A stretch of 64,000 nucleotides of DNA from Schizochytrium sp. TIO01 (taxonomy: Eukaryota; Sar; Bigyra; Thraustochytrida; Thraustochytriidae). Location of the stretch: positions 2,816,501 to 2,880,500 of the forward strand of contig SMSO01000032.1 in assembly GCA_004764695.1 (NCBI GenBank), written 5' to 3'. The notes below the pieces were generated by a model. The model was given only the letters and a program-made list of their open reading frames with translations. It searched no databases and was not told the origin of the DNA. This document shows positions 4,834-63,199 of the stretch, piece by piece. The translations under genes and the position numbers were made by a program. Position 1 is the stretch's first letter, and each line of letters starts with the position of its first letter.

Positions 4834-7467
4834 TTAAAGTACAGTAAGCAATCCTTGGGAACCTGAATTGGCACTATCACATGAATCTCTAGAAGAAGAG
4901 GAAGAAAATGTAGATAAACGTGGATCCCTAGTATCCGCTGAAGACGTGTGCGATATAGGCAGTCGAGAATATGCGTTCGAACTCGTCAATGATGGAAAAT
5001 GCACATCGAGGAGTCTACGACGAGAACGTGGGCTATAAAATGCGTCGCTATTACCATCGGAATTATCATCACCAAACATTATGTCCATTTCAGTACGGGT
5101 ATCATCATTAAAGCTACAATGACTACCTTCCGAAGTAGGTATCAACATGCTTGTAGCATCAGCAGGGGCATATGCAAACCTTTTGTGCAGTTCACTATTG
5201 CGATGTTCTTTGAATGGAACAGAATCAGGCGTTCCGCAAAAGCAAAGTAAAATGAAAAGAGCCAAACCACACAGTGCAGTTGCAACACATGATACGATGG
5301 CGAATGTGTGTGCTGGGCCGAAACTCAAACACAACTGGTTATCTATGCACTCTGCATTGAGACCCTCCAGAAACGAATTCGAAGGGGGTGCAGCGCCTAG
5401 CACGGTTGACTGCTCAGTATTGACAATGGCAAGCTGCATAAGTCGAGTTTGAGTCAGAAACACCAAGGCAAGGGTTTTGAAGATTGCAGCAAGAACTACT
5501 ACAAACGAGGTCATCATCAGAGAGAGTCTTGTCTTACGAAAAACAGTGCACACAAGCATGATGCAACCTAAAAAACTCAGAAATGAACCGAATATCCAAA
5601 AGGCCTGAGAGAAAGCAAATTTGGGGTCGTGCTGATTCTTCATTTCAAGTTGGTCAGAGCATTCGTTCTTAAGATCATCGAGAGAGCGAATGTCTGACCC
5701 ATAATAAGCACTAGCGATGTCCATGGAGTTCTCCAACGATACGCAGGCGGTCTTATTAAAGTACTGGAGCTCCTCACAGGGTTCGATTATCCGCAACAAC
5801 AGGATATTTGCATCGCTTTCTCCGCTCATACTGACAAGGTAATGACGCAAAGTGCAACTACTACGCATGGAATTCATACAGAGCCTCTGTGATTCCAAAG
5901 GATTTGAGCCGCGCTGGCATGTAGAACCTGTGAAACCTACAAGATCGCGGATTTCATCGTAAGTGAACTTATGGCAAAGAGGAAAGGGGTCATCCAGAGA
6001 ATGTGGCCATTTCGACTCTGACAAGTTTCCAATAAAAGCGTCAATACACTCCTCAAATGATAGCGTCCCTTCGCAGTTTTCATGAAAGAGGAAACTCTCT
6101 ACAAAAGAAGCCTCTGACTGAAAGTATCGTTGCGCACCACACAATGAACCGATAAAAACACGATTGGCTATTAAAGCAATATCATCAGGAGAAACGTCAC
6201 ATTCAGCTGAATCGCACCTGGAATTTTCTAGGCTTTTATTAGCCTTTGCAGAGGAAAATTTCCAACGCTCAGGAGTCGTGCACCAAGAAGAAGGCTCACC
6301 ATTGAAGTTGGAGTCAAAGAGATGTACTACTTCATCAAGTTTTTCATCAATGAAATCAGATATTGGGTATGCATACCCCTTTTGAATTGAAAATAACACC
6401 GCTGCAAGAGGACACTTGTCACTGGCCTGTTTATGTGTTTGCAGAAGACTTGCGGATCGAAAGGCCAAACACAGGGGGTGATCGCGACTCGACGCATATA
6501 CAGTGTTTTGAAGAGGGGTAACCTTTGAAATTGTTGCAAGAGATAGCGCACTTACACACTCGATATACGAAGTGAGAAAGTTGTGGTCTGTAGTTTCCAT
6601 CGCTAAACGAAAGATTTCTTGGTCAGAAACGCTGGAAGTCACAGTAAATGTGAATTGGATTGCAATGTTGAAGTACAATTGCTTTGTGTAGTCCTGTATT
6701 TGCTTTATCGCAACTGAGCATGCAACTGGATCATAGTGTTGTTTGCATACGACACCTTCAGAAGCTAGTTTAGTGAGCTTGGCACTCCGCAATACCACGT
6801 ATGCAAGTTGACCACGAACATCTTCCTCTCCGATAGGAGGTGAGCCATCTATTATCGTGAGCAAACCTTTGAGCGTAACCCGTGAGATGTGCATGACGTA
6901 CATCCAAAGAATGCGAATCAAGTTTCCAGTGTAAATATCCTGCATGTTTTTGAGCAGCTGAGATTGATAGAGTTCATACTCCTTTTTAAGAAGATGTTCG
7001 AGTGAATCTACAGCTTGAGAGGGTCTAGGATCTCTTAGCATTGCGGATGCAATGTCATGTGTCCACAACACCTGACACCTTGATGGAGAAGCACTTGCAA
7101 TCTCTGCTGACCGTCCTAACAACGCCCCATTTGAGAGGTCCCATGCAGATTTTGAACCAAATGCCTCAGCGCTAGCTATCTTCATGGGCTGGAGATCATC
7201 AAAAACTGTCGGTAGTGCAACACGATCTGGTTCTAGTTCCGTGATATTAGAAGAATTTCCTTGTGGAATTTGAGTGTCAGACGCCAAACACGTTGAGGCG
7301 ATTTCCGTTGTAAACAGACCGACCATGACAAATGGCCTTGCCGCGTCTGGGCAGTGTGGAGATAGCGTGAGGTAAAACCAGGACCCAGCGACAGCGTCAT
7401 AGACGCCTAGAGCAAGCCCAAACCAAATTAAGAAGCCAAGCAGGGCACCTGGACAAACCTGTCTCAT
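4834..7467 (-). CDS. Large four-pass membrane protein A (tandem paralogue)
   Basis: This 877-residue membrane protein is paralogous to the next gene upstream. An N-terminal hydrophobic segment (residues about 7-27, ALLGFLIWFGLALGVYDAV) is followed by an extracytoplasmic region of nearly 600 residues rich in Cys. Three more membrane segments lie at about 618-642, 650-676 and 720-747, and a Ser-rich tail (748-877) follows. TM1, a GLF...C motif (residues 50-60), one long loop and three further TMs resemble the claudin/Sur7 plan with a hugely enlarged first loop; that relationship is only my inference. Motifs shared with the paralogue are SSRDHPLCLAF at about 322-333, a Trp-Pro plus FPLC block, and LDIASAYYGS. 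The function is unknown; a plasma-membrane surface protein is most likely. A 10-bp-arm hairpin sits just before the ATG. Confidence 0.85.
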   Translation of the reverse strand: MRQVCPGALLGFLIWFGLALGVYDAVAGSWFYLTLSPHCPDAARPFVMVGLFTTEIASTCLASDTQIPQGNSSNITELEPDRVALPTVFDDLQPMKIASAEAFGSKSAWDLSNGALLGRSAEIASASPSRCQVLWTHDIASAMLRDPRPSQAVDSLEHLLKKEYELYQSQLLKNMQDIYTGNLIRILWMYVMHISRVTLKGLLTIIDGSPPIGEEDVRGQLAYVVLRSAKLTKLASEGVVCKQHYDPVACSVAIKQIQDYTKQLYFNIAIQFTFTVTSSVSDQEIFRLAMETTDHNFLTSYIECVSALSLATISKVTPLQNTVYASSRDHPLCLAFRSASLLQTHKQASDKCPLAAVLFSIQKGYAYPISDFIDEKLDEVVHLFDSNFNGEPSSWCTTPERWKFSSAKANKSLENSRCDSAECDVSPDDIALIANRVFIGSLCGAQRYFQSEASFVESFLFHENCEGTLSFEECIDAFIGNLSESKWPHSLDDPFPLCHKFTYDEIRDLVGFTGSTCQRGSNPLESQRLCMNSMRSSCTLRHYLVSMSGESDANILLLRIIEPCEELQYFNKTACVSLENSMDIASAYYGSDIRSLDDLKNECSDQLEMKNQHDPKFAFSQAFWIFGSFLSFLGCIMLVCTVFRKTRLSLMMTSFVVVLAAIFKTLALVFLTQTRLMQLAIVNTEQSTVLGAAPPSNSFLEGLNAECIDNQLCLSFGPAHTFAIVSCVATALCGLALFILLCFCGTPDSVPFKEHRNSELHKRFAYAPADATSMLIPTSEGSHCSFNDDTRTEMDIMFGDDNSDGNSDAFYSPRSRRRLLDVHFPSLTSSNAYSRLPISHTSSADTRDPRLSTFSSSSSRDSCDSANSGSQGLLTVL

Positions 7468-9276: not shown

Positions 9277-11958
9277 TCAAACAATTCCAAGCGTGTGGGT
9301 TGAGGGAATATGCGAACTCGCATTCGAGGTCGAAGAATCAGAAGTATTGTGTGTGCTGATTGCACGTAATGAAGTGGCATCCGTGCGTGTCAGTTCGCTC
9401 TCACGGACAGCAAGCTCCGCATTCGATGCTTGATTATGTGTCAATGCATGCCGAAATGAAGTTGTCGCCGCGTTGTTACCATCGCCAGAAGACGAGGTAC
9501 TCAACGAAGATTCAGAACGCTCTTCCTGAAGAGGCTGTTGTTCAACGCTTGCATTTAGGTGATCAGAAGCATAACTAAACTGGTAATACATAGAAGCTGC
9601 TTGGCGCTTCGCATGTTCATCAATGCGTCCCAGACTATTTTGTTTGGAGCAAATGAGGGCCAACAGAAGAAGGAAAAACCCCAAGCAAGTTCCAGCAATT
9701 GCACACCTGAGGATCACATGATCATAGCCTCGGTAAAAGCAAAGTTGGCCCTCCGTGCACCCATCATAATAGTCATACATCACTTCCAACGAAGTCGCGT
9801 TCTTTACAGAAGCTCGAGATTCTGCTAGGTTTTTGCGTTTGAGAATAGCTCGTTGCATATTGGACATATTAATGCAAACGAGGAGGCCAACATAGAAACC
9901 AAATGAGAAAAAGCCCAAGCACGGGGCAAGAATTAAAGAAACACATGATCCTCGAAGTAGCACGTCAAGAATAATCACACATGTAAGGAAGGATACAGAC
10001 AGCGCCAACGGTAGAAAAAAAATGCCCATATTGATGTAAGTGTCCACGGTAAAGTGAGTGCGCGAGTTGCTTCCACAGGTATTGACTAACGCATCTTCAT
10101 CAGAGAGAATCGAACCATAGAATGTCGAAGCAAGGTCAAGCGACTGGCGCAAGTCTAAGCAATCTGCTGTCGTGTAGATGTCTGAGTCTTTGCAAGGTGT
10201 CCAAAAGTATCTTTCGAGAACAGAAGCCGCAGAGGACTTGTCTCGTAAATCCAAATAATAGGTGAGTGTGCATTTGGACCAAAGGTCTTGAAGCCAGGTT
10301 CTTTCGGACCAGTAGGAGAGGTCACTAATTTTTTTGGTGGGGCTGTCTAGCGCTTCGGCAATGGAATTGGGCGCAGCATTTTTACAGAGAGAGAATGCAT
10401 TGTCAAAGTGCCCTGGCCAACTTGTGGTAGAACTTTTGTTGAAAAAACTTTTTCGGCAAGTCGTGAGAGTATCTGAGGAGGTACATTCTTCGCCCAGAAT
10501 AAACGAAGAACCTGCTTCGTGTGATGTAAGAAAAGAACGAGAACCGCACAAATGACTGTTGTAGGCATTTAGCATGTCGCTGACTGAAGAATTCGGTGCT
10601 GCAAGATTGCGACCTGTTTCCAAATACTCCGCTGAGACACTACTTTCTTCTGAGCAAGAAGGAGCGGTCTTGCCAAGGCTCACCACTTCACTTGACAAGG
10701 TTGAAAGCAGAGATGAAACTGTGGAACCCAGACTTGTGTTGTTTCGAATTGCAGTGTGTCCTACTAAAGATAAGATGCAGGCCCCACTGAGCTTGCTGCT
10801 AGAAGGACCAGTGACAAGCATATCGATCTTGTCAAAAGCGAGACACAACGGATGATCCTTTGAAGAGTTGTAAAACAATACGGCCAATGGTCCGGATGTA
10901 CTTCCATAGGAGGAAATGCTGTTAAGAGAGTTAGAGTATATTGCCATCGTGACAATGTCTTCGGATGAGGTTGAGATCTCTGCGGGTGCACTACTAGCTG
11001 TCGAATCAATGTCGAAGGCTGAACAAAGGGCAGATACAAAATTATCCAGGTATAGACCCTCAGCGAGTTCCTCGAGCTCTTCAAAGTGTTTCTCGCAATC
11101 GGAGTCGCCATCACAAACTTCTGACTCGCCGCTGTCTATCAATTGCACAGCCTTTGTAGCATAGTACGCTAGGTTGTACACAACATCATCATCATCATCG
11201 CCAGATGTCGCTGATACGCTGCTGGAGTCCGGTTGACTGCTACTGGAGAACTCATCAGCCCCCCCTCCACCAAGAATTCGGCCTGATTGGTGGCTGGTTG
11301 ATGAAGACGTCGACGTGGATGATGACTTGGAGGAGTCTGCCAGCATTGCTACGAGTGGGGTAACCGAGTTTGTCACAGTCTCTTGCATAACAAGAGTCCA
11401 AAGAAAGAGCATAGTGTGGTCATAAAACGCGTCTGTTTGTTCAATAAGAGATTCATAAGAGCTGGAAAGATTGGTATCCAAGAGTGAGTCAACAGAGTCA
11501 TAAGTTGACCACCAGGAATAAGAAAGGTCGCCATATTTCAAACCAAGTTCTTCCCCTTTTGCAGAAAGCCATGCATCCTCGCAAGCTTCTTGCGCCGTGC
11601 TATCGGTCGCCTTCCCTGCCATGCTTTTTAGCAAGATGAGGCTCAATGCATTAAAAGTTGCGTAATTCATAGTGCGAGGATCTGGCAAAAGCACAGTTGA
11701 GATGAGAGATCGCGAATAAGTCTCTGATAAGAAATCAAAGTTTGAAGTTCTTTCGTAGCCTTCGGGCATAGAGTTATTTAAGCATGTCGGGTCATATGTC
11801 GTACTGAAAAGTCCAATCTGTAGCAAGGGCGAATCATCTGTGCAGAGCGGCGGCAGTGTTACATAGCCATAGTTGCGTGTGGCAGTCTGTACAAGCCCAA
11901 GGACTAGGCCAAACCAAATAAAGAGGCCTAAAGCTCCACCAGCACAGGAGGGCTGCAT
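9277..11958 (-). CDS. Large four-pass membrane protein B (tandem paralogue)
   Basis: This 893-residue protein has the same plan as its downstream neighbour A. TM1 is at residues about 8-26 (ALGLFIWFGLVLGLV), GLF...C is at 49-59, and a loop of about 610 residues follows. TM2-4 lie at about 645-670, 672-696 and 745-771, with a hydrophilic Ser/Thr/His-rich tail of 120 residues. Conserved paralogue motifs are SSKDHPLCLAF (about 363-374), the SWPG...FSLC block and LDLASTFYGS. It differs by a Ser/Thr-rich, Gly- and Asp-rich insert at about 210-262 ending in DDDDD, which looks like a flexible, O-glycosylated linker. Many NxS/T sites support an extracytoplasmic loop. The start MQPSCAGG aligns with the start of A. 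No function is known. The pair arose by tandem duplication but has diverged strongly outside the motifs and membrane segments. Confidence 0.85.
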   Translation of the reverse strand: MQPSCAGGALGLFIWFGLVLGLVQTATRNYGYVTLPPLCTDDSPLLQIGLFSTTYDPTCLNNSMPEGYERTSNFDFLSETYSRSLISTVLLPDPRTMNYATFNALSLILLKSMAGKATDSTAQEACEDAWLSAKGEELGLKYGDLSYSWWSTYDSVDSLLDTNLSSSYESLIEQTDAFYDHTMLFLWTLVMQETVTNSVTPLVAMLADSSKSSSTSTSSSTSHQSGRILGGGGADEFSSSSQPDSSSVSATSGDDDDDVVYNLAYYATKAVQLIDSGESEVCDGDSDCEKHFEELEELAEGLYLDNFVSALCSAFDIDSTASSAPAEISTSSEDIVTMAIYSNSLNSISSYGSTSGPLAVLFYNSSKDHPLCLAFDKIDMLVTGPSSSKLSGACILSLVGHTAIRNNTSLGSTVSSLLSTLSSEVVSLGKTAPSCSEESSVSAEYLETGRNLAAPNSSVSDMLNAYNSHLCGSRSFLTSHEAGSSFILGEECTSSDTLTTCRKSFFNKSSTTSWPGHFDNAFSLCKNAAPNSIAEALDSPTKKISDLSYWSERTWLQDLWSKCTLTYYLDLRDKSSAASVLERYFWTPCKDSDIYTTADCLDLRQSLDLASTFYGSILSDEDALVNTCGSNSRTHFTVDTYINMGIFFLPLALSVSFLTCVIILDVLLRGSCVSLILAPCLGFFSFGFYVGLLVCINMSNMQRAILKRKNLAESRASVKNATSLEVMYDYYDGCTEGQLCFYRGYDHVILRCAIAGTCLGFFLLLLALICSKQNSLGRIDEHAKRQAASMYYQFSYASDHLNASVEQQPLQEERSESSLSTSSSGDGNNAATTSFRHALTHNQASNAELAVRESELTRTDATSLRAISTHNTSDSSTSNASSHIPSTHTLGIV

Positions 11959-19350: not shown

Positions 19351-22300
19351 ATGAGGTCCGCAAGGAGGCGGAGTGTAGGGCTTGTACTAGCACTTTTGAT
19401 CGCTGCAGTATCTAGCTCGGGCACTCAAGCTAGCGTGGATGTAGCAAGCCTCGCTCTGCCCGGCTTCAGCATTCTGGAGAATGCACGGCGCGTGGTGGCT
19501 GAGGCTGTCAGGGAAGTCACAGGATATAACATAAATGCTACACAAGGAAACCTCACCGATGACCAAGCAAGACGTCTGAACGGCATGGGCTGCAGCATTT
19601 GCACCATGCCCACGACATCGCCGCCCACCCCGGAGCCAACCCCGAAGCCTACCGATGATCAGCCCTCGCCAACACCAGAGCCAACACCAAAACCAACCGA
19701 TGATCAGCCCTCACCGACACCGGAACCGACACCCAAACCAACTGATGACAACCCGTCACCAACACCGGAGCCAACCCCAAAGCCAACTGATGACAACCCG
19801 TCACCAACACCGGAGCCAACCCCAAAGCCAACTGATGACAACCCGTCACCAACACCAGAACCGACACCCAAACCTACAAACGATAACACTTCTCCAACTC
19901 CTGAGCCAACATCTAAGCCAACTAAAGCCGACTCTACGGCAGAGCCCACCCCCAAACCTACGAAGGAGCCTACCTCTGGGTCGAGCCCAACTCCAGAGCC
20001 CACGGCAGAAACCACGCCGCGGCCAACGAAGTCACCTACTTCGGGGTCTAGTCCAACTCCCCAACCCACGGCTGAGGATACGCCTAAACCTACAAAGAAA
20101 CCCACAACTCAACCAAGCCCTACACCGGCACCAACAGCCGAAACTACACCACGTCCAACAAAGAAACCTACGAACCAAGCGAGCCCAACTTCGGCGCCTA
20201 CTGCTGAGACTACACCTCGGCCCACGAAAAATCCTACAAACCAAGCGAGTCCCACTTCTGCACCTACTGCCGAGGCCACACCAAAGCCCACGAAAAAGCC
20301 CACAGACCAGCCCAGTCCTACTTCGGCACCAACTGCCGAGGCCACACCAAAGCCCACGAAAAAACCCACAGACCAGCCCAGTCCTACTTCGGCGCCAACT
20401 GCCGAGGCCACACCAAAGCCCACGAAAAATCCCACAAACCAACCTAAGCCCACTGCAGAGCCCACCGCCAAGCCCACCGCAGAGCCTACCAAACAGCCTA
20501 CCCGAAAGACTTCGACATCCAAACCAACCTCCAAGCCGACCCGAGAACCCACGCAGAACCCGACTTCTCAACCTACAGTTCGAGTGACTTCCGAAGAAAT
20601 CACACCAAGCCCTTCATCTGCCCCGAGCATGGCACCAACAGTGATGCCTACGCTTCTGCCAACAAGTGCTCCTACTAATTCCACCTGCAACAACTCTATT
20701 TGGGATGATGATGAGGGTGAATCTGATATAGATTGTGGTGGTGATCTTTGCCCAGCTCGGTGCAGGGTTGGAGGTGGCTGCTACGTCGCGAGCGACTGTG
20801 ACGGAAACCTCGTTTGTACATTCACCGGAACTGTGCTCCGTGGTTCTTGTGAAGAAGAACCGGAACCCATTCCAGTAATCATCAAGTACCCAACATGTAC
20901 ACCTGGTACCCGTTGCCTGCACAACAATGCGTCTGCCAGTGTAGACCCGTACGGAGTTTGCGTACTGACACAAGACAACTCCACTAATGACAAGGTTGGT
21001 CACTGTATTCCGACGTTAGATACTTTGCCGCCTCCCGTTGTTGTGACGGATGGGGAGTGTTTGTACCCTTGGCGTTGGATTATGGCTACAGTCGTCTTAG
21101 GGTTATCCTTGATCATCTCTGCTTGTGCCAAGGACCAAATGCTCTTTGTACAAGCTCTTGATCTCGGTCACATTATTGCAAGTGGTGCCTTTTTGGTACT
21201 CCCCTCTGCACCTGTGTGCTACCTTGCATTCGCGACGGAAATGCGATGGAGTACACTTGTTTTGTTGCCTATTCCGCACCAGCTCGAGCCTGATGAGAGC
21301 TTGATGAATATTGATTCAGATGATGATACAAATGGTCGGAGACTTATATCTTTCAGTACTAATTTGACATGGGAAGACGTTGGTCTCTCTCGCATGACTC
21401 AAGCTGTGGGCTTGGACCACAAGTACCTTCTTTGTGGATTTCTCATTCTCATGTTGGCTGTCATGCTTATCTATGCGGTGGTGCAGATCGCTATGTCTGG
21501 TATTAACAAGTGGTACTACTGTATTCGCGAGTCAGCTGTTCGCATTCCATACATGCTTTCATACCCCGTAATTGCCTTGTCAGCCTACACGCTCTATGTT
21601 GTCTTCATTGCCAAAGACGCCGACTCGGTGGCCCTTCAGGCCGGCCTTGCATTTTTGGCATTAGCTGTGATGATCATTAGCGTTGCATGGATTGCGATTT
21701 GCTTTCGATACACGTGGCCATCTGATCCTGCAAAGACATTTCGTTCTCTTCACGTTGACTGGAATATGCGTCACAGATTATTCTGGTGTGTGCGTGTCCT
21801 AAACAATGCTTTCCGCGGATTCTTCATTGGTTTAGTCACGCAGCCTGAACCTGTACAAGCTGGCCTTTTCTTTGGTGTCGGCGTTCTTTACTTCGTTGTG
21901 TTGGCATGGGTGAAACCGTACGAGTACCGGTCTACCAACTGGATTGCACTTGTAGCCGCATTCCTATATGTGATTAACACCACTATCCCAATCATCTTTG
22001 CTATGGACCCAGCACCATTCTCGACGAGCACATTGGAAGTACTCGGCGAGGTTCAGGTCTGGCTCAACGTGGGATCGCTCTTTTTCATGCTGGCTATTAT
22101 CATGAGCCAAGTCCTTGGCAAGCGGGCTGAAAAGCGTCGTGCGGCCAAAGATCAAATCGCAGAGGAAGGCAAAATCGAGGACTCTGAAGCCGAGCTTACT
22201 AAACACATGTTTGTCCTTGACGGCAGTGATGCAGTCTCGCAGGATAATGATTTGGAATCTGGTGGGGCTTTTGCAAAAGCAAGTTCTCGTGCGCTTGCTA

Positions 22301-22542
22301 CCCTTCAACGCCATCGCCATTCCTCAGCCACCATCGTGGCAGCAACGCCGCAGGATGATAGCACTCAGCTCAGTAAGGATGACTCTGCGACATCAACAAA
22401 TGCTGATTCAGACTCGGACTCTGTTTGCTCGTCTCCGCTTCAGCTTGAACATATTCATACGGAACCGGAAGGGTTTGGACCTTCGCATGGGTCCAACGCG
22501 TCTCCTCGTGATCCCAAATCTACGCGACTCACTGTGCTTTAA
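19351..22542 (+). CDS. PT-stalk polytopic surface protein C (tandem paralogue)
   Basis: This is a 1063-residue secretory-pathway membrane protein. The signal peptide is at residues 1-28 (basic, then GLVLALLIAAVSSS). A Pro/Thr repeat stalk spans about 88-446. A Cys-rich module at about 447-560 contains the DIDCGG signature seen in many extracellular eukaryotic and bacterial proteins. About eight membrane segments follow between residues 574 and 924, and a 139-residue acidic Ser/Thr-rich cytoplasmic tail ends the protein. Within the membrane part RLFWCVRVLNNAFRG (about 809) and KPYEY.STNWIAL (about 855) are shared with paralogue D. The KPY...N motif recalls TRP-like/polycystin-like membrane modules of fungal and protist surface proteins, but that is a weak match. 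The stalk is probably heavily O-glycosylated. A cell-wall or surface sensor or channel is plausible; function unproven. Confidence 0.88.
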   Translation: MRSARRRSVGLVLALLIAAVSSSGTQASVDVASLALPGFSILENARRVVAEAVREVTGYNINATQGNLTDDQARRLNGMGCSICTMPTTSPPTPEPTPKPTDDQPSPTPEPTPKPTDDQPSPTPEPTPKPTDDNPSPTPEPTPKPTDDNPSPTPEPTPKPTDDNPSPTPEPTPKPTNDNTSPTPEPTSKPTKADSTAEPTPKPTKEPTSGSSPTPEPTAETTPRPTKSPTSGSSPTPQPTAEDTPKPTKKPTTQPSPTPAPTAETTPRPTKKPTNQASPTSAPTAETTPRPTKNPTNQASPTSAPTAEATPKPTKKPTDQPSPTSAPTAEATPKPTKKPTDQPSPTSAPTAEATPKPTKNPTNQPKPTAEPTAKPTAEPTKQPTRKTSTSKPTSKPTREPTQNPTSQPTVRVTSEEITPSPSSAPSMAPTVMPTLLPTSAPTNSTCNNSIWDDDEGESDIDCGGDLCPARCRVGGGCYVASDCDGNLVCTFTGTVLRGSCEEEPEPIPVIIKYPTCTPGTRCLHNNASASVDPYGVCVLTQDNSTNDKVGHCIPTLDTLPPPVVVTDGECLYPWRWIMATVVLGLSLIISACAKDQMLFVQALDLGHIIASGAFLVLPSAPVCYLAFATEMRWSTLVLLPIPHQLEPDESLMNIDSDDDTNGRRLISFSTNLTWEDVGLSRMTQAVGLDHKYLLCGFLILMLAVMLIYAVVQIAMSGINKWYYCIRESAVRIPYMLSYPVIALSAYTLYVVFIAKDADSVALQAGLAFLALAVMIISVAWIAICFRYTWPSDPAKTFRSLHVDWNMRHRLFWCVRVLNNAFRGFFIGLVTQPEPVQAGLFFGVGVLYFVVLAWVKPYEYRSTNWIALVAAFLYVINTTIPIIFAMDPAPFSTSTLEVLGEVQVWLNVGSLFFMLAIIMSQVLGKRAEKRRAAKDQIAEEGKIEDSEAELTKHMFVLDGSDAVSQDNDLESGGAFAKASSRALATLQRHRHSSATIVAATPQDDSTQLSKDDSATSTNADSDSDSVCSSPLQLEHIHTEPEGFGPSHGSNASPRDPKSTRLTVL
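19626..20460 (+). repeat. Coding minisatellite encoding the Pro/Thr stalk
   Basis: Two repeat families lie in frame. A 45-base unit encoding PTPEPTPKPTDDQPS-like peptides is present about 6.5 times in the first 300 bases. A 66-base unit encoding SPTSAPTAE.TP.PTKKPT.Q-like peptides is present about five times from about 20109. Several adjacent copies are nearly identical at DNA level (for example 20280-20430), so recent copy-number change is likely. The opposite strand stays open across the repeats only because of composition. Confidence 0.92.
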
Positions 22543-24143: not shown

Positions 24144-26645
24144 ATGACTAGCATGCAGCGCTTCGTTTGTGTTAGCTTGGTGGTTTTTGCCTGGGCAGCG
24201 CTCTTCAGCATGGCTCAGACTCCAGTAGTCCCTGAGACTCCAAATCCAACTTTTGCAATTTCGCCAACTCAAGAAATTGTGACATTGAAGCCAACAGTTG
24301 GCAAGACGCCAGCACCTTCAAAAGAAACCCCGTCTCCAACAAAAGAGACCTCATCTCCAACAAAGGAAACTCCGTCGCCAACAAAGGAGACTCCATCGCC
24401 AACAATTCCGACATCTAAGCCAACAACCCCTGCTCCTAGCAAGGTTGAGGTAAATCCAACAAAAAAACCTACGAAGAAACCAACTCCAGAACCCACAGCA
24501 ATCGTACTGGCCCCAAGTACCTCTCCAATAACAGTAGCGACTGAGAGTCCATCAATAAGCTTGACCATATCTTTGAGCCCTACAATCGAAGAAGGGCCCA
24601 CTACAGCACCTACTTTTCCAGCAAAAGTTACACTGGCACCCACGAGCTTTCCAACTAGCAATGTTCCGAGCGATGCACCAACGCCTCTTCAACAAACAGA
24701 TGATACAGAGATTGGTCGCAATTCGTCATCTACAGAAACCCCGTCCCTTCCGCCAGAGTGCGTTAACGGAGAACAAGATGAGACGATAGGAGAGACCGAC
24801 ATCGACTGTGGCGGAAATTACTGTTCTCAACGATGCAGCACCTTGGAGCATTGCCTTGTTGGGAACGACTGCGGCGCGGGCGATGTTTGTGGATTCCAGG
24901 TTGGTTTAATGCTGGGCACGTGTTATCCAGAGCCCGCAAACTTAACACTTCAACCTCCGTGTGTGATAGGGTCAAGCTGTCAGCATACCTTCGCAAATGA
25001 GTCACTGTCAGAGAGCATTTGCGTTCTTCACTCCAACAACAATGTGTCAGGGTTTTGTATCTCATTGCCCAAACTGGCAGCTGTTAGCACAAGCACAGAG
25101 GAAGAAAGCACTACACGTTGGAGCACAGAAGCAATCTTGGCAAATGCATTGCTTGGTTTGTGCCTTCTTGTAACATTACTTATGCAGGACAGTTTCCTAG
25201 TCCTGCAAATACTAGAAGTCGGCCAACACTGTTGTGTCGGAGCTCTACTATGGCTCCCAAGCGCATCTTCATCATATACTGCCTTTGCAAGCACTCTTGC
25301 ATGGATAATGTTTATGGGATTAGACCCTAGTCCTAGTAACTCATCTGAATCTAATAGCACCCGGCGACTTGCCGATGTGGGTACTGAAGATGCAAATGGA
25401 ATTTCTACATTTGCTGATCTCGTTGGACTCAACAAGAGCCTTTTGCTCCCTGGATGTCTAATAGTTATGTGTATATGTTGGGTGGCGTATACTCTTGTGC
25501 AACTTTTATATCATGGCTTAACATCTTTGCGTGAGGTTTCTCAAGAGGCAGTAGTAAGACTTCCATACATATTTTCATATCCACTCATAACCATGTCGGC
25601 ATACACTTTCTATTCGCTTCTAGTAGTAGGAGATGTTGACAGTCGAGGTATGCAGGCAGGTTTAACTACTCTCGCAGCAGTGATCGTTGGGCTGAGTCTT
25701 GCTTGGACCTACTTTTGTACCCAAAACACCCTACAGGACGAATGTGGAGATAGTTTTCGATCTCTGATTTCAGATTGGAAACATGATATGCGATTGTTCT
25801 GGTGTGTACGCATTGTTAACAATTTTAGTAAAGGAATGTTTCTTGGCCTTCTCACTCGGCCCACTCCTTTGCAAGCGGTTTTATTTGTTACCATCAGTCT
25901 CACGTATCTTTCTCTTCTCGTTATTCTCCGACCATATAAATACGGATCTACAAACAAAATTGCCATCTTAGGTGGTGCACTATGTGCTGCAAACACAATT
26001 CTTCTCGTTCTTTTTGCAATAAGTCCAATGCCGTTTAGCACCGCAATGATGGAAACGCTCGGTGTTGTTCAAATGTATTTAACAATTGCATCGTTTGCCC
26101 TAATGTTCATGGTTGTTCTCAGTCAGTATTATCTTCGCGTACACATGGACGAACGTGAGCCATCATCCTCAACGGTAGAGATTGATAATACCAAAAAAGT
26201 CGACGTTGAATCACCATCTGGATTTCCTATTGATTTAGGTCTTGATTTGGTGAAGCTCGAAGATCTGGAGGCGTCTGAAATGAGTCATGGTGGCTCTTTC
26301 TCCACACGACCTTCTCTGGCTGACATTCTTAGAATTGGACGACAGCAGAGTTTCTTGTCATCACCAACTTCTTCTTCTTCTGAGGAGTCCTTTGAAGATG
26401 GGTGCGAAACGGAGCAAAGCAGAGCACAAGTTAATTATTATCACGAAGACGGATTGGCTCTTGAAAGTTGCCAGTCATCATTTTCAAACTATGGAAGCGA
26501 GACTGATGTTGGTCAAGTAGAAGAAATCGAAAGTAGTTGTGGTAGTGCCACTGATGGGTTTCTAAACGATGGCTTACTGTTGGCCACTCCAGATAGCTCA
26601 TTCACAGGGAGTCGCAACGACTATAGTTCCGAGGAAGATGCGTAG
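24144..26645 (+). CDS. PT-stalk polytopic surface protein D (tandem paralogue)
   Basis: This 833-residue paralogue of C is in direct tandem. Signal peptide at residues 1-25 (FVCVSLVVFAWAALFSMAQT), shorter Pro/Thr/Ser stalk at about 27-200, Cys-rich module at about 206-305 with ETDIDCGG, and about eight membrane segments between residues 330 and 670. A Ser/Glu/Asp-rich cytoplasmic tail follows. The conserved membrane motifs are RLFWCVRIVNNFSKG and RPYKYGSTNKIAI. A loop between membrane segments carries RRL (STRRLADV), matching GRRLISF in C at the same place, perhaps a processing site. Codon use is more AT-rich than in C, and the stalk repeats are older and more degenerate except for a short PSPTKET array. 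Probably a surface protein; function unknown. Confidence 0.88.
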   Translation: MTSMQRFVCVSLVVFAWAALFSMAQTPVVPETPNPTFAISPTQEIVTLKPTVGKTPAPSKETPSPTKETSSPTKETPSPTKETPSPTIPTSKPTTPAPSKVEVNPTKKPTKKPTPEPTAIVLAPSTSPITVATESPSISLTISLSPTIEEGPTTAPTFPAKVTLAPTSFPTSNVPSDAPTPLQQTDDTEIGRNSSSTETPSLPPECVNGEQDETIGETDIDCGGNYCSQRCSTLEHCLVGNDCGAGDVCGFQVGLMLGTCYPEPANLTLQPPCVIGSSCQHTFANESLSESICVLHSNNNVSGFCISLPKLAAVSTSTEEESTTRWSTEAILANALLGLCLLVTLLMQDSFLVLQILEVGQHCCVGALLWLPSASSSYTAFASTLAWIMFMGLDPSPSNSSESNSTRRLADVGTEDANGISTFADLVGLNKSLLLPGCLIVMCICWVAYTLVQLLYHGLTSLREVSQEAVVRLPYIFSYPLITMSAYTFYSLLVVGDVDSRGMQAGLTTLAAVIVGLSLAWTYFCTQNTLQDECGDSFRSLISDWKHDMRLFWCVRIVNNFSKGMFLGLLTRPTPLQAVLFVTISLTYLSLLVILRPYKYGSTNKIAILGGALCAANTILLVLFAISPMPFSTAMMETLGVVQMYLTIASFALMFMVVLSQYYLRVHMDEREPSSSTVEIDNTKKVDVESPSGFPIDLGLDLVKLEDLEASEMSHGGSFSTRPSLADILRIGRQQSFLSSPTSSSSEESFEDGCETEQSRAQVNYYHEDGLALESCQSSFSNYGSETDVGQVEEIESSCGSATDGFLNDGLLLATPDSSFTGSRNDYSSEEDA
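24319..24405 (+). repeat. 21-bp coding repeat (PSPTKET)
   Basis: Four near-identical 21-base units encode PSPTKET-type heptapeptides inside the stalk of protein D. Confidence 0.85.
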
Positions 26646-54222: not shown

Positions 54223-56857
54223 ATGTCTTATTATAGCAGTTTGGCCTCTCTGTTCGGCTCAAGAAGACACACCTCAAGTTACTGTGAGTACGCACTCCTT
54301 GGCGAGCGTGCAATTTCTCAATTTCCGTGCGAGCGCGAGGCAACGAAGATGTCCTCATCGTCATCAGGCGGTGAGCGACGCAGGTCCAGCGTGCGAAAGC
54401 TCCTGTCGCCTCTAGTGAACTCCGTAGGAGACCGCATCTCTCTTAAGAGACGGAGACGTCGTGAGGCATTATCGCAGCTCCTGGAGACATGGATCCAGGC
54501 CCCAACAGGTGGTGGCCCACACGGCGAGCAGCCTGACAGCCTTAAGGACACTTTAGATATTGAGGAAAGTGAGTCTGGTCGAAGAATGCGCGCAGCACGA
54601 AAAGAAGCTGCCAACCGTATTATGAAGAACACACAACTTGTGGAGGAGAATACCTTGCGAGGAAATATCGAACTCAGTGATCTCGAACACCTTGACTGTT
54701 TGCCCGAATTCATTTATGTTGTTGAGGGCAGTCTTGACGTAGAGGGTTGCATAGAACTCATTGCTCTGGGAAATGACTTAAGACTCATTACTGGGAACCT
54801 GAATTGTCTGCGATGTACAAGCCTTGCCGAACTTCCACCGTTCTTGCAGGTTGAGGGCTGGGCAAATTTTGGTCGTTGTCGCGCACTTAAGGTTATCCCT
54901 GACACTGTTGTGATCAAGGGTTGGACCTCCCTACATGGATGCTCATCACTGCAGTCCCTTGATGATCTATCTGAAGTAGGTGCGTCTCTCAGACTTTACC
55001 AATGTCTTGCTTTACGGACGCTAAGACATATCCATGTTTCTGGAGATCTGGACGCCTCTGCGTGCGCCTTGGAAGCACTGGAGGGCGTTGAAGTGGGTGG
55101 CCATTTAGACCTCAGTCAGAATCACAACTTACAGGTCTTGCCTTCTGGCACTCTACGGGCAGGGTTTTCTAGGCAAGGTTCTGATGGCGATACACCTCAT
55201 CCCCACGAATTCACAATTAATTTGTCAAACTGCGACATTCGTTCACTTCCTCCAAGAAGCCTCGATATATGCGACGGTGGGGGGCTTGATCTTTCTGGGA
55301 ATGCTCATTTGGACTCAGTTAACGACCTTGGGTGTACTGTTGGAAAACTAAACTTGGCCAACTGTTTTAACCTCCGACATTTAGATGCCAACGTATCCGT
55401 ACTGTGGACAATTAACCTTACATATTGCACTCAACTTCGTACACTGCCACCTCGCCTACATCTTCGTGGAGACTTAACGCTCAATTTTTGTGCTTCTTTA
55501 CTGGATTTACCAGACGATTTGGTTGTGGATGGCGATCTAGAATGCACAAACTGCCACGCGCTTGCTCGTGTGGGTACTGTTCAAGTTGGTGGAAGGGCTA
55601 ACTTTGCACACTGCAATGCACTACATACGCTTGAGCGTGGGGCGCATTTTGGAGATTCAATTATTTTGGAGCAATGCGTCTCACTGCTTCGTCTTCCAGA
55701 TGACTGGACTCATATTTATGGCGACTTGTCATTACGCTTTTGCAGTGAGCTTGTTGAGCTTCCTGCGCAATTGCAAACTGTGGATGGCCATGTGGACCTC
55801 TATGGCTGCACTCGACTTCGTGAAGTCCCTGAAAACCTCGTTGCAGTTGGCGGACTAACAGGCTTTTCGTCAACTGGAGCACAGGGCACGCGACTTTGGT
55901 CTTTGGAGGAGGCCGTCGTATTCTGGACGCAGGATCCAAATGGTGCTTTCGCCAAGCGCAAGTCAATAAGCAAAAGAAAATCAAGTCGACGCCTCAAGGA
56001 GCAGGAATGCTCTCGGATGGCAGAAGCAGTCCGTGCAGAGCCTGCTTACGAGCGAGGCATAGTTATTTTCCTTGATAAGCTCCGTCATACAAAAGACTAC
56101 GAGCTAGCTCCTGATGTGGTACACGCGCAAGTTCAGGAAGCCTTCCGTATTGTCGAGGAAGATCCTCATAGCGACACCGCGCAAGCAATTCTGATACGCA
56201 TGAATGATGCTGTCAACGCTTGTCATGATAAACCAGCATGGGCTCTCTCACAATTATATGCTCTCTCCTTAGTGGTTCGCGCACGTGGGGATAGCGTACA
56301 GCTGAGGCAGATTGGGTTGCGTATAATGCGACTTGGTATGGTGCAAAATGCAGCCATGGACCTTGTTCAAGCAGATCGTACATTGGACGATGTCTCGGTT
56401 ATGCTTGACTTGGAGTGTGAACTAAAAGATAGGCCTTGACCTCCCAGTCCTCGTGAAGGATTTCCTCTTCCGGAAACTGAGCAAGGTGGACCCTTCTGTT
56501 GTTAAAGCGATTTGTGACCAAGTTCTTGCTGTTTCAGATTCCCAATTCGAGGTTTGGCTTGAAGCTTGGCCCGAGTGGCAGCGTCAATTGCGTCAAGAGG
56601 TCGCCGTACAACTAAAGTGGGAGGACCTTCGCGCAGTCGAAGCTTCCAAGTCAGATTTGGATGATGCTGTCAACATGGTCGGGGATCCTGTACGTCAACC
56701 TGTTCGTCTACAGGGTCTCGGCAACGACATCCTCGACTTCGACGACGTCACCGAGCACTGGTTATCCACTGGTCGTGCTCTTACGGTATCGCAGGATGTT
56801 TCACCGCAGATCTTTCCCCAGATCCTTCAAAGGCTTGTACCCGCCGCTTCACCGTAA
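54223..56857 (+). CDS. LRR protein with NEL-type (novel E3 ubiquitin ligase) domain, frame change inside
   Basis: NEL domains are cysteine-based E3 ubiquitin ligases known from bacterial type III effectors, always behind leucine-rich repeats. The first open frame is 54223-56439 (738 residues); Met43 at 54349 is an alternative start. A basic N-terminus (about 58-82, with KRRRRRE) and a helical cap containing RxxAxxRI (about 125-140) precede about 18 leucine-rich repeats of 20-22 residues (147-545), pattern GDLxLxxCxxLxxLPxxLxVxG. A basic Lys/Arg/Ser linker follows. The NEL-like domain starts near residue 610 with FLDKL. Its catalytic signature Cys-x-Asp is CHD at 667-669, followed by GLRIMRLGM. 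The frame ends at TGA 56437, but the next frame (56426-56857) continues the domain directly, including WPEW near 56565 and a 60-residue tail. An E3 ligase acting on host proteins is inferred; if the frame change is real the gene may be inactive. Horizontal origin is likely. Confidence 0.82.
56426..56440 (+). other. +1 frame change at CCT-TGA inside the NEL-like domain
   Basis: The first frame runs into TGA at 56437-56439 straight after AGG-CCT. The +1 frame has a stop at 56423-56425, so the only window for the switch is 56426-56439. Dropping one base of the GGCC at 56432-56435, or a ribosome slipping +1 from CCT to CTT before the TGA, joins the frames with no gap relative to the domain family. 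A tiny 31-base GT-AG intron (56417-56447) would also work but is implausibly short. Confidence 0.75.
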
Positions 56858-62077: not shown

Positions 62078-63199
62078 ATGGTTGCCGAAAACATGGAGTG
62101 GCAAGAAGAGGCGAGAGATATGAACGTGCGCAAGCAGCGCGTGGAGCTGCTCCTGAATATGGTCAAGGGTAGGGTAGGCGCACAGAACGTATCGCAAACA
62201 CCGACGGATCAACAGGTTCGCATGGTTAGGGCAATTGAACTGCTTTGTTACGCAAATGCACGCTCTCAGGAGGAGTACAAGGAGGAGGTTAAATTTATGA
62301 TGCTCTTGCACCGTGTGCTGGTAACCGAAGCGAAGAAAAAAGCATCAAGCGGGTCACCTTCAATCAAAAATGAGCGCGAACATGGAGTAAAAAGACCGCA
62401 CCCGCCTCCCAAGATGCCACCTAGTAAGCCTGCATCCGCATTAACTTACCGCTCCGGCCAAACCACGCAATCCTCATCATCATCCGTCTCCAATTCACCA
62501 GCATCCACTCCAATGTCGCACACATCAACGCCTTACTTCCCCAGCTCACAACCACTTTACAACATGACCTACACACAAGAACAAAAGGTCTCTTCCGGTA
62601 TGCCTATGGGTTCTAGTCCCTACGGTCAACCGCACCCTGGATACATGGCCGCTGGTAACCCCGGAATGGACCCCGGCATGGCTGCAATGCCCCCTGCCCC
62701 AGGCTCAGGAGGATATTCATACGTGGCTGTCGCTCCTTATGAACCTTGGGCAATCCCGGCGTATGGCACAAACGGAGGTTCTTATGGAGGCGCAGGTATA
62801 TCAGGTAACCCAGATTACACCGTACCTGGAGACGTGCATGCACACGCCATGCACCATCAGCAGCAGATTCAGCAGCAGCAAGCACAAGGCCAAAACTCGG
62901 GCAGCATGCAGCAGCAGCAATTCGCAGTTCCACCAATGGGAGCACGAAACCTTTCACCAAAAGAGATTAAAAGGAGGAGACTTTCCCAACCACCGCTTCA
63001 CCCCAATGGGGGGGCAGACACTATGGCAGTATCCCAGCCTCAAACCCTCGATGGAAACCGCCGAACCAATTCCGAGCCTGGTCACATCGATCTCACCCCG
63101 CGCCCCATGCAATCCTACGGAGAAGGCGGTGCATGGGTTGACGAAATGGCAGACTTTCTCTCATTGGTCTTTGACGATGATGGTGGAGAAATGAAATGA
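62078..63199 (+). CDS. KIX-like, Gln-rich putative transcription coactivator (MED15-like?)
   Basis: This 373-residue protein has a helical N-terminal domain and a long disordered remainder. Residues about 7-85 (start MVAENMEWQEEARD, then RVELLLNMVKGRV and ELLCYANARSQEEYKEEV) have the spacing of a KIX domain. These include the leading Trp, a first amphipathic helix and the A.S.EEY helix seen in MED15 and CBP-type coactivators. Pro/Ser/Thr-rich sequence covers about 100-190, Gly/Pro/Tyr-rich about 190-250, and a Gln/His tract about 257-285 (HHQQQIQQQQ). A basic patch KEIKRRRLSQ at about 298 could be a nuclear localisation signal, and the end is acidic (FDDDGGEMK). The role as a Mediator tail or other coactivator subunit is an inference from domain order. 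Other Gln-rich nuclear proteins are possible. Confidence 0.75.
   Translation: MVAENMEWQEEARDMNVRKQRVELLLNMVKGRVGAQNVSQTPTDQQVRMVRAIELLCYANARSQEEYKEEVKFMMLLHRVLVTEAKKKASSGSPSIKNEREHGVKRPHPPPKMPPSKPASALTYRSGQTTQSSSSSVSNSPASTPMSHTSTPYFPSSQPLYNMTYTQEQKVSSGMPMGSSPYGQPHPGYMAAGNPGMDPGMAAMPPAPGSGGYSYVAVAPYEPWAIPAYGTNGGSYGGAGISGNPDYTVPGDVHAHAMHHQQQIQQQQAQGQNSGSMQQQQFAVPPMGARNLSPKEIKRRRLSQPPLHPNGGADTMAVSQPQTLDGNRRTNSEPGHIDLTPRPMQSYGEGGAWVDEMADFLSLVFDDDGGEMK

Follow-up and report, generated by a model that had tools for sequence, protein, structure and literature searches.

The novel E3 ligases (NELs) IpaH, SspH and SlrP of enterobacteria, grouped in Pfam family PF14496, comprise a leucine-rich repeat (LRR) region followed by a catalytic NEL domain with a Cys-x-Asp motif. 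According to extracts of published accounts, these ligases are bacterial enzymes used on hosts (PMC9320238), and the known NELs transfer ubiquitin from a UbcH5-type ubiquitin-conjugating enzyme (E2) onto their cysteine and then onwards, and they are autoinhibited when no substrate is present (PMC12506513). An earlier claim of a NEL-type sequence in a eukaryote concerns the NLR genes of Klebsormidium, for which an extract of the paper calls an ODAL (LRR) superfamily domain homologous to NEL (PMC7145615). Here we describe a gene at positions 54223-56857 of a 64,000-nucleotide stretch (hereafter the window) of contig SMSO01000032.1 of the thraustochytrid Schizochytrium sp. TIO01. This gene encodes an LRR protein with a NEL domain and very probably belongs to a native, multi-copy thraustochytrid family of NEL E3 ligases with a U-box-like tail, acquired once and most likely from a host-associated bacterium.

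The family resembles IpaH, SspH and SlrP in the order of LRRs and NEL, in the Cys-x-Asp motif and, according to a structural model, in its fold. In contrast to these effectors, it has at least 18 chromosomal copies in a eukaryote, includes variants with Arm or SPRY domains and carries the additional tail. Its repeats, spaced about 21 residues apart, show a recurrent cysteine, and the modelled homologue P0018 is 16-21% identical to NEL crystal structures in structural alignments. The NELs of Endozoicomonas sp. SCSIO W0465 and of a Rhabdochlamydiaceae symbiont (P0030, P0031, P0045, P0061 and P0034) show similar LRRs, NEL and tail, with 33-34% identity to P0018 over 80-94% of that protein. They differ in being bacterial and in exhibiting CDDR where the eukaryotic family has CxDKP.

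The gene consists of two open reading frames (ORFs) on the + strand. ORF 1 (54223-56439, 738 residues) comprises an N-terminal region, the LRR array, a linker and the first two thirds of the NEL domain, and ORF 2 (56453-56857, 134 residues) the end of the NEL domain and the C-terminal tail. The LRR array (54670-55857, +; residues ~150-545, limits set by eye) contains 12 repeat cores recognised by a regular expression, besides weaker repeats visible by eye, and the sole Pfam match on it is a repeat match below cut-off (DUF5649, E 0.16). The first-pass annotation, made from the sequence alone, had read the locus as an LRR array followed by a NEL-type domain and had proposed a search with the Pfam NEL profile. 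Both pieces match PF14496, and in the expected order. Piece 1 is above the cut-off of 24 bits (29.3 bits, E 6.9e-7; profile positions 28-162 of 223; residues 612-736, 56056-56430, +), and piece 2 is below it (16.2 bits, E 0.0072; positions 171-221; 56456-56605, +). The two profile spans are collinear and do not overlap. As a profile built from 17 paralogues matches both pieces strongly (3.4e-39 and 2.7e-32, among 41 sequences), a chance match to NEL is excluded. The catalytic motif, previously noted as CHD, is placed at 56221-56229 (+), with the codon of Cys667 at 56221 and that of Asp669 at 56227, and the AWPEW segment noted in the next frame lies, as EAWPEW, inside the last part of the NEL domain. 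NCBIfam returned effector matches, all below cut-off.

With regard to the fold, a superposition on NEL crystal structures had also been proposed. The model of homologue P0018 matched these structures in nine of nine Foldseek hits at E<=0.001. The all-helical NEL fold is thus predicted for this homologue, and not for the whole NEL of the window protein. A profile search of the PDB aligned the cysteine of the family with that of 5kh1. Pfam, the PDB profile search and the structure predicted for a homologue therefore all support membership of the NEL family.

The window gene is not alone in this genome. A six-frame search yielded at least 19 NEL matches on nine contigs, namely the two window pieces and at least 17 other loci (these counts being lower bounds), the best with an E-value of 4.8e-30. 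The suggestion that the host owns a NEL-type gene thus holds for at least 18 loci, their function as ligases being predicted. All 17 further loci are open through the domain, NEL was confirmed by Pfam in each of the 17 paralogues, and three of the loci lie within ~17 kb of one contig. LRRs precede the NEL domain in the window gene; L018 exhibits Arm repeats instead, so the LRR is not family-wide, and L019 and L020 exhibit SPRY and further LRRs before the NEL domain. The catalytic cysteine and aspartate are invariant in 39 of 39 rows of an alignment of the 17 paralogues with 22 database relatives, five of which are near-copies of paralogues, the window copy being left out. Cys667 and Asp669 are likewise invariant in all 20 rows of an alignment led by P0023, a public counterpart of the window gene. 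The 17 relatives, the tail and the recognition of the frame change as a break go beyond what the first-pass annotation had noticed.

Related genomes and transcriptomes, where a search had been advised, contain the family as well. Relatives were drawn from 120 of 336 profile matches, and 133 protein identifiers were scored with a tail profile. Hondaea fermentalgiana, another thraustochytrid, is the sole named source among the relatives found for the window gene, and transcriptome entries, including MMETSP entries, were found for two relatives of the family. L013 and P0020 (JGI, MMETSP, EukProt) are 98.3% identical before the NEL domain and 99.7% identical across NEL and tail. In five of six Hondaea orthologue pairs conservation is lower in the N-terminal part than in the ligase part. 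The window gene departs from this pattern, with 58.9% identity to its orthologue P0024 before the NEL domain and 52.5% across NEL and tail. Fourteen control genomes returned no NEL but also no E2 domain, and therefore say little about eukaryotes, and viral_contigs gave 26 pattern matches, none of them encoding a relative. Precomputed Pfam labels already flag public NEL relatives, under source names such as 'Disease resistance protein TAO1' and 'RPP5', and among the literature matches listed, judged by title and start of the abstract, none deals with NELs in thraustochytrids or with proteins combining NEL and U-box. The sequences are therefore public but apparently undescribed.

Several predicted proteins show unusual domain combinations. 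P0032 of Hondaea joins NEL to a tubulin GTPase domain and may be a gene-model fusion or a true chimera. P0004, from an assembly of the dinoflagellate Durusdinium trenchii, contains Arm, NEL and dsDNA_bind (PF01984), and could be a thraustochytrid contaminant, a model fusion or a second transfer. P0062, P0063 and P0071 match the LRR-NEL profile partially and carry DnaJ (PF00226) or HECT (PF00632), so similar repeats seem to be joined to several partner domains. At one paralogue, a stretch of Ns produces a spurious open frame of 23,648 residues, which was discarded.

Beyond the NEL domain, the tail encoded by the window gene is predicted by modelling to adopt a U-box-like fold (56651-56848, +; residues 67-132 of the model). 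Such a tail is common to the NELs of thraustochytrids, Endozoicomonas and the Rhabdochlamydiaceae symbiont, and the eukaryotic and bacterial tails are related to each other (hhalign probability 97). Aligned with the five U-boxes of the same genome, a set of 68 tails reached an hhalign probability of 85, the 43 eukaryotic tails 72 and the 25 tails of the bacterial group 56; the scores of the 68-tail and 43-tail sets exceed every column shuffle run. A tail set rich in bacterial rows (A3) matches LubX at 0.0016. The model predicts that the tail shares its fold with the U-boxes of Prp19, Ufd2/E4B, CHIP, LubX and AvrPtoB. In contrast to these domains, the tails lie below Pfam detection, and the proline of loop 2, at what we take to be its position in known U-boxes, was not seen in the own-genome or eukaryotic tails. 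It is present as NPLTN in Endozoicomonas, whose tails keep this motif and a cysteine pair.

The origin of the family was addressed with trees for which we had grouped the rows as eukaryotic or bacterial beforehand. The 43 eukaryotic rows comprise 17 from this genome, P0023, six from Hondaea, one from MMETSP, one from Durusdinium and 17 of unnamed or undisplayed source. The named bacteria are P0030, P0031, P0045, P0061, P0034, P0105 and the Pseudomonas and Bradyrhizobium rows, and the other 22 of the 27 tail-group rows, together with P0096, were placed by sequence. The tail profile reaches the tail in 25 of these 27 rows and stops at position 231 of 300 in P0041 and at 219 in P0056; the tail of P0041 was likened to that of P0055 by eye. 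P0112 (source unnamed), the fragments P0057 and P0059, and P0001, P0006, P0007, P0010 and P0020, as duplicates of own-genome loci, were dropped beforehand. In the tree of 81 NEL domains, the eukaryotic rows form one clade (100/99), which branches among the tail-group bacteria, next to P0041 and P0055 (93/87), two records taken for bacteria. The clade persists (98/99) in a second tree, to which a Bradyrhizobium NEL was added and from which long or redundant rows were removed, including P0096, P0105, 14 tail-group rows and six Pseudomonas rows. As the eukaryotic rows form one clade, a single acquisition appears well supported by these sequence comparisons. In the 81-domain tree, six pairs of orthologues link this genome with Hondaea (five pairs are starred), which indicates that much of the family is older than the split between the two organisms. 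A search for a close donor in GTDB confirmed nine loci out of 81 pattern matches, all from Pseudomonas, with 24-29% identity.

Several observations weigh against this overall reading. The second tree leaves the place of the eukaryotic clade among the bacteria open, and its bootstrap had not settled. Approximately unbiased (AU) tests reject neither a single clade of tail-group bacteria (p 0.476) nor the grouping of eukaryotes with P0041 and P0055 (p 0.323), and in both trees the outgroup rows do not fall on one side of any branch and long branches meet. The NEL of the window gene itself has a long stem (1.37 in the 81-domain tree), and in this assembly the reading frame of the window copy is interrupted. 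The TM-scores of the P0018 model to the NEL structures are modest (TMt 0.28-0.52). As for the tail, Foldseek gave a best E-value of 0.015 and none <=0.001, with unrelated entries lower in the list, Pfam recognised a U-box in none of eight tails, and a plain profile of 18 own-genome tails had no PDB match at E<=10. Finally, the predicted ligase activity of the gene and its family rests on homology.

Because the eukaryotic position among bacteria is not fixed, the trees leave the direction of transfer undecided. The first-pass annotation had suggested horizontal transfer from a bacterium or symbiont followed by expansion of the repeats. A one-time transfer fits the trees; the AU tests do not settle that the donor was bacterial, and no evidence of a later expansion of repeats was found. 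We infer a transfer from bacterium to protist, with a bacterial donor likely. The reverse route, in which the fusion of NEL and U-box arose in a eukaryote and was recaptured by Endozoicomonas and Chlamydiae, would accord with the U-box being a eukaryotic-type domain, and the nesting of eukaryotes within tail-bearing bacteria, which would speak against it, is not statistically secured. However, NELs without a visible tail are bacterial, the eukaryotic rows branch beside P0041 and P0055 among tail-group bacteria, and the direct sequence link to a U-box came from the bacteria-rich tail set, not from the eukaryotic one. This route is thus unlikely.

The change of frame in the window copy must also be considered. 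It is a one-base change inside the NEL domain (56426-56452, +). An intron was ruled out as its source, since the shift amounts to one base and the aligned pieces overlap. P0023, a public protein of 877 residues with three member sequences, is unbroken; it is 97.8-99.3% identical to piece 1 and identical to piece 2 in 134 of 134 residues, and it scores 69.2 against PF14496. Its source label 'lgn' presumably denotes the Logan assemblies. The paralogues L018 and L012 also shift frame relative to their public versions P0001 and P0007, their aligned pieces lying in different frames and overlapping. No such change is present in P0006/L009 and P0010/L015, each of which aligns as one piece. These shifts of L018 and L012 hint at residual single-base indels in the assembly. 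As P0023 is unbroken and two paralogues are shifted likewise, an indel in the assembly is probably the source of the change, a strain-specific lesion being possible. That the window copy is instead a pseudogene in decay, within a family that is otherwise real, would be in line with the position of the break inside the NEL domain and with the lowest NEL score among the 18 copies. Such decay is nevertheless quite unlikely given the intact P0023, the shifts of L018 and L012, which point to assembly indels, and the unbroken Hondaea orthologue P0024, which retains CHDKPAWAL.

In our proposed mechanism, the N-terminal region (LRRs, or Arm or SPRY with LRRs in some relatives) would recognise the substrate, the NEL domain would take ubiquitin from an E2 onto Cys667 and pass it to the substrate, and the U-box-like domain may assist in docking or positioning the E2, or may pair subunits. 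The genome contains 26 E2-domain matches. The ancestor would have been one NEL gene with a tail, as in Endozoicomonas and Rhabdochlamydiaceae, taken up once, likely from such a bacterium. As the window gene is eukaryotic and chromosomal, there is no reason to expect type III secretion. RBR ligases have both a RING-like module and a catalytic cysteine; the likeness would lie in the way of working only, the catalytic domains being unrelated and no homology being claimed. We tentatively consider, as a rather doubtful extension, that the sensor-NEL-U-box repertoire is a separately evolved eukaryotic thioester E3, in which the U-box-like module would pass E2~ubiquitin to the NEL cysteine as in RBR ligases and the N-terminal sensors would choose targets, perhaps viral or bacterial, like TRIM or NLR proteins. 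Alternatively, the NEL could be a catalytically dead scaffold, with the tail alone, or neither domain, acting as ligase; NEL activity is a prediction and the window NEL is strongly diverged, but the invariance of Cys and Asp in 39 of 39 relatives, and also in P0023 and P0024, makes this improbable.

The window is located inside a 9.04-Mb contig of a genome of 64.06 Mb in 37 contigs. Upstream of the NEL gene, Pfam recognises RRP4, ankyrin repeats, TRP-like channels, IQUB, RPN6 and an ATP-type phosphoenolpyruvate carboxykinase (PEPCK); downstream within the window it recognises no gene, one long ORF (62078-63199, +) having been tested. The argument that eukaryotic flanks exclude contamination therefore stands on the PEPCK side, where RRP4, ankyrin and RPN6 also lie, and not on the side of the supposed KIX-like gene, which is that same downstream ORF and has no Pfam match at E<=0.001. 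Bacterial contamination or a symbiont contig, which the chiefly bacterial occurrence of NELs (extract of PMC9320238) and the downstream side would allow, is scarcely credible because of the size of the contig, the eukaryotic genes upstream, the spread of at least 18 loci over nine contigs, the three copies fused to Arm or SPRY domains, and the grouping of own-genome rows in one clade with entries from Hondaea and MMETSP, separate from the named bacteria.

Elsewhere in the window, two adjacent genes (19351-22542 and 24144-26645, +) exhibit membrane domains of the TRP type (PF06011; E-values 4.9e-8 and 7e-8) and, by eye, Pro/Thr-rich N-terminal stretches, and are perhaps duplicated. Two long ORFs (4834-7467 and 9277-11958, -) appear similar by eye and have no Pfam match at E<=0.001.

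Eukaryote-owned, predicted NEL ligases with a U-box-like tail are a real and surprising extension of the known family, and they suggest that a eukaryote has incorporated an enzyme of bacterial type into its own cellular machinery. If this is true, a eukaryote with about 18 NELs, new architectures and a second E3-type fold would indicate that enzymes of the effector type are open to domestication and diversification, and the family would supply NELs acting on substrates of their own cell. The arrangement of NEL and U-box, also present in host-associated bacteria, makes the recruitment of E2 by NELs directly testable.
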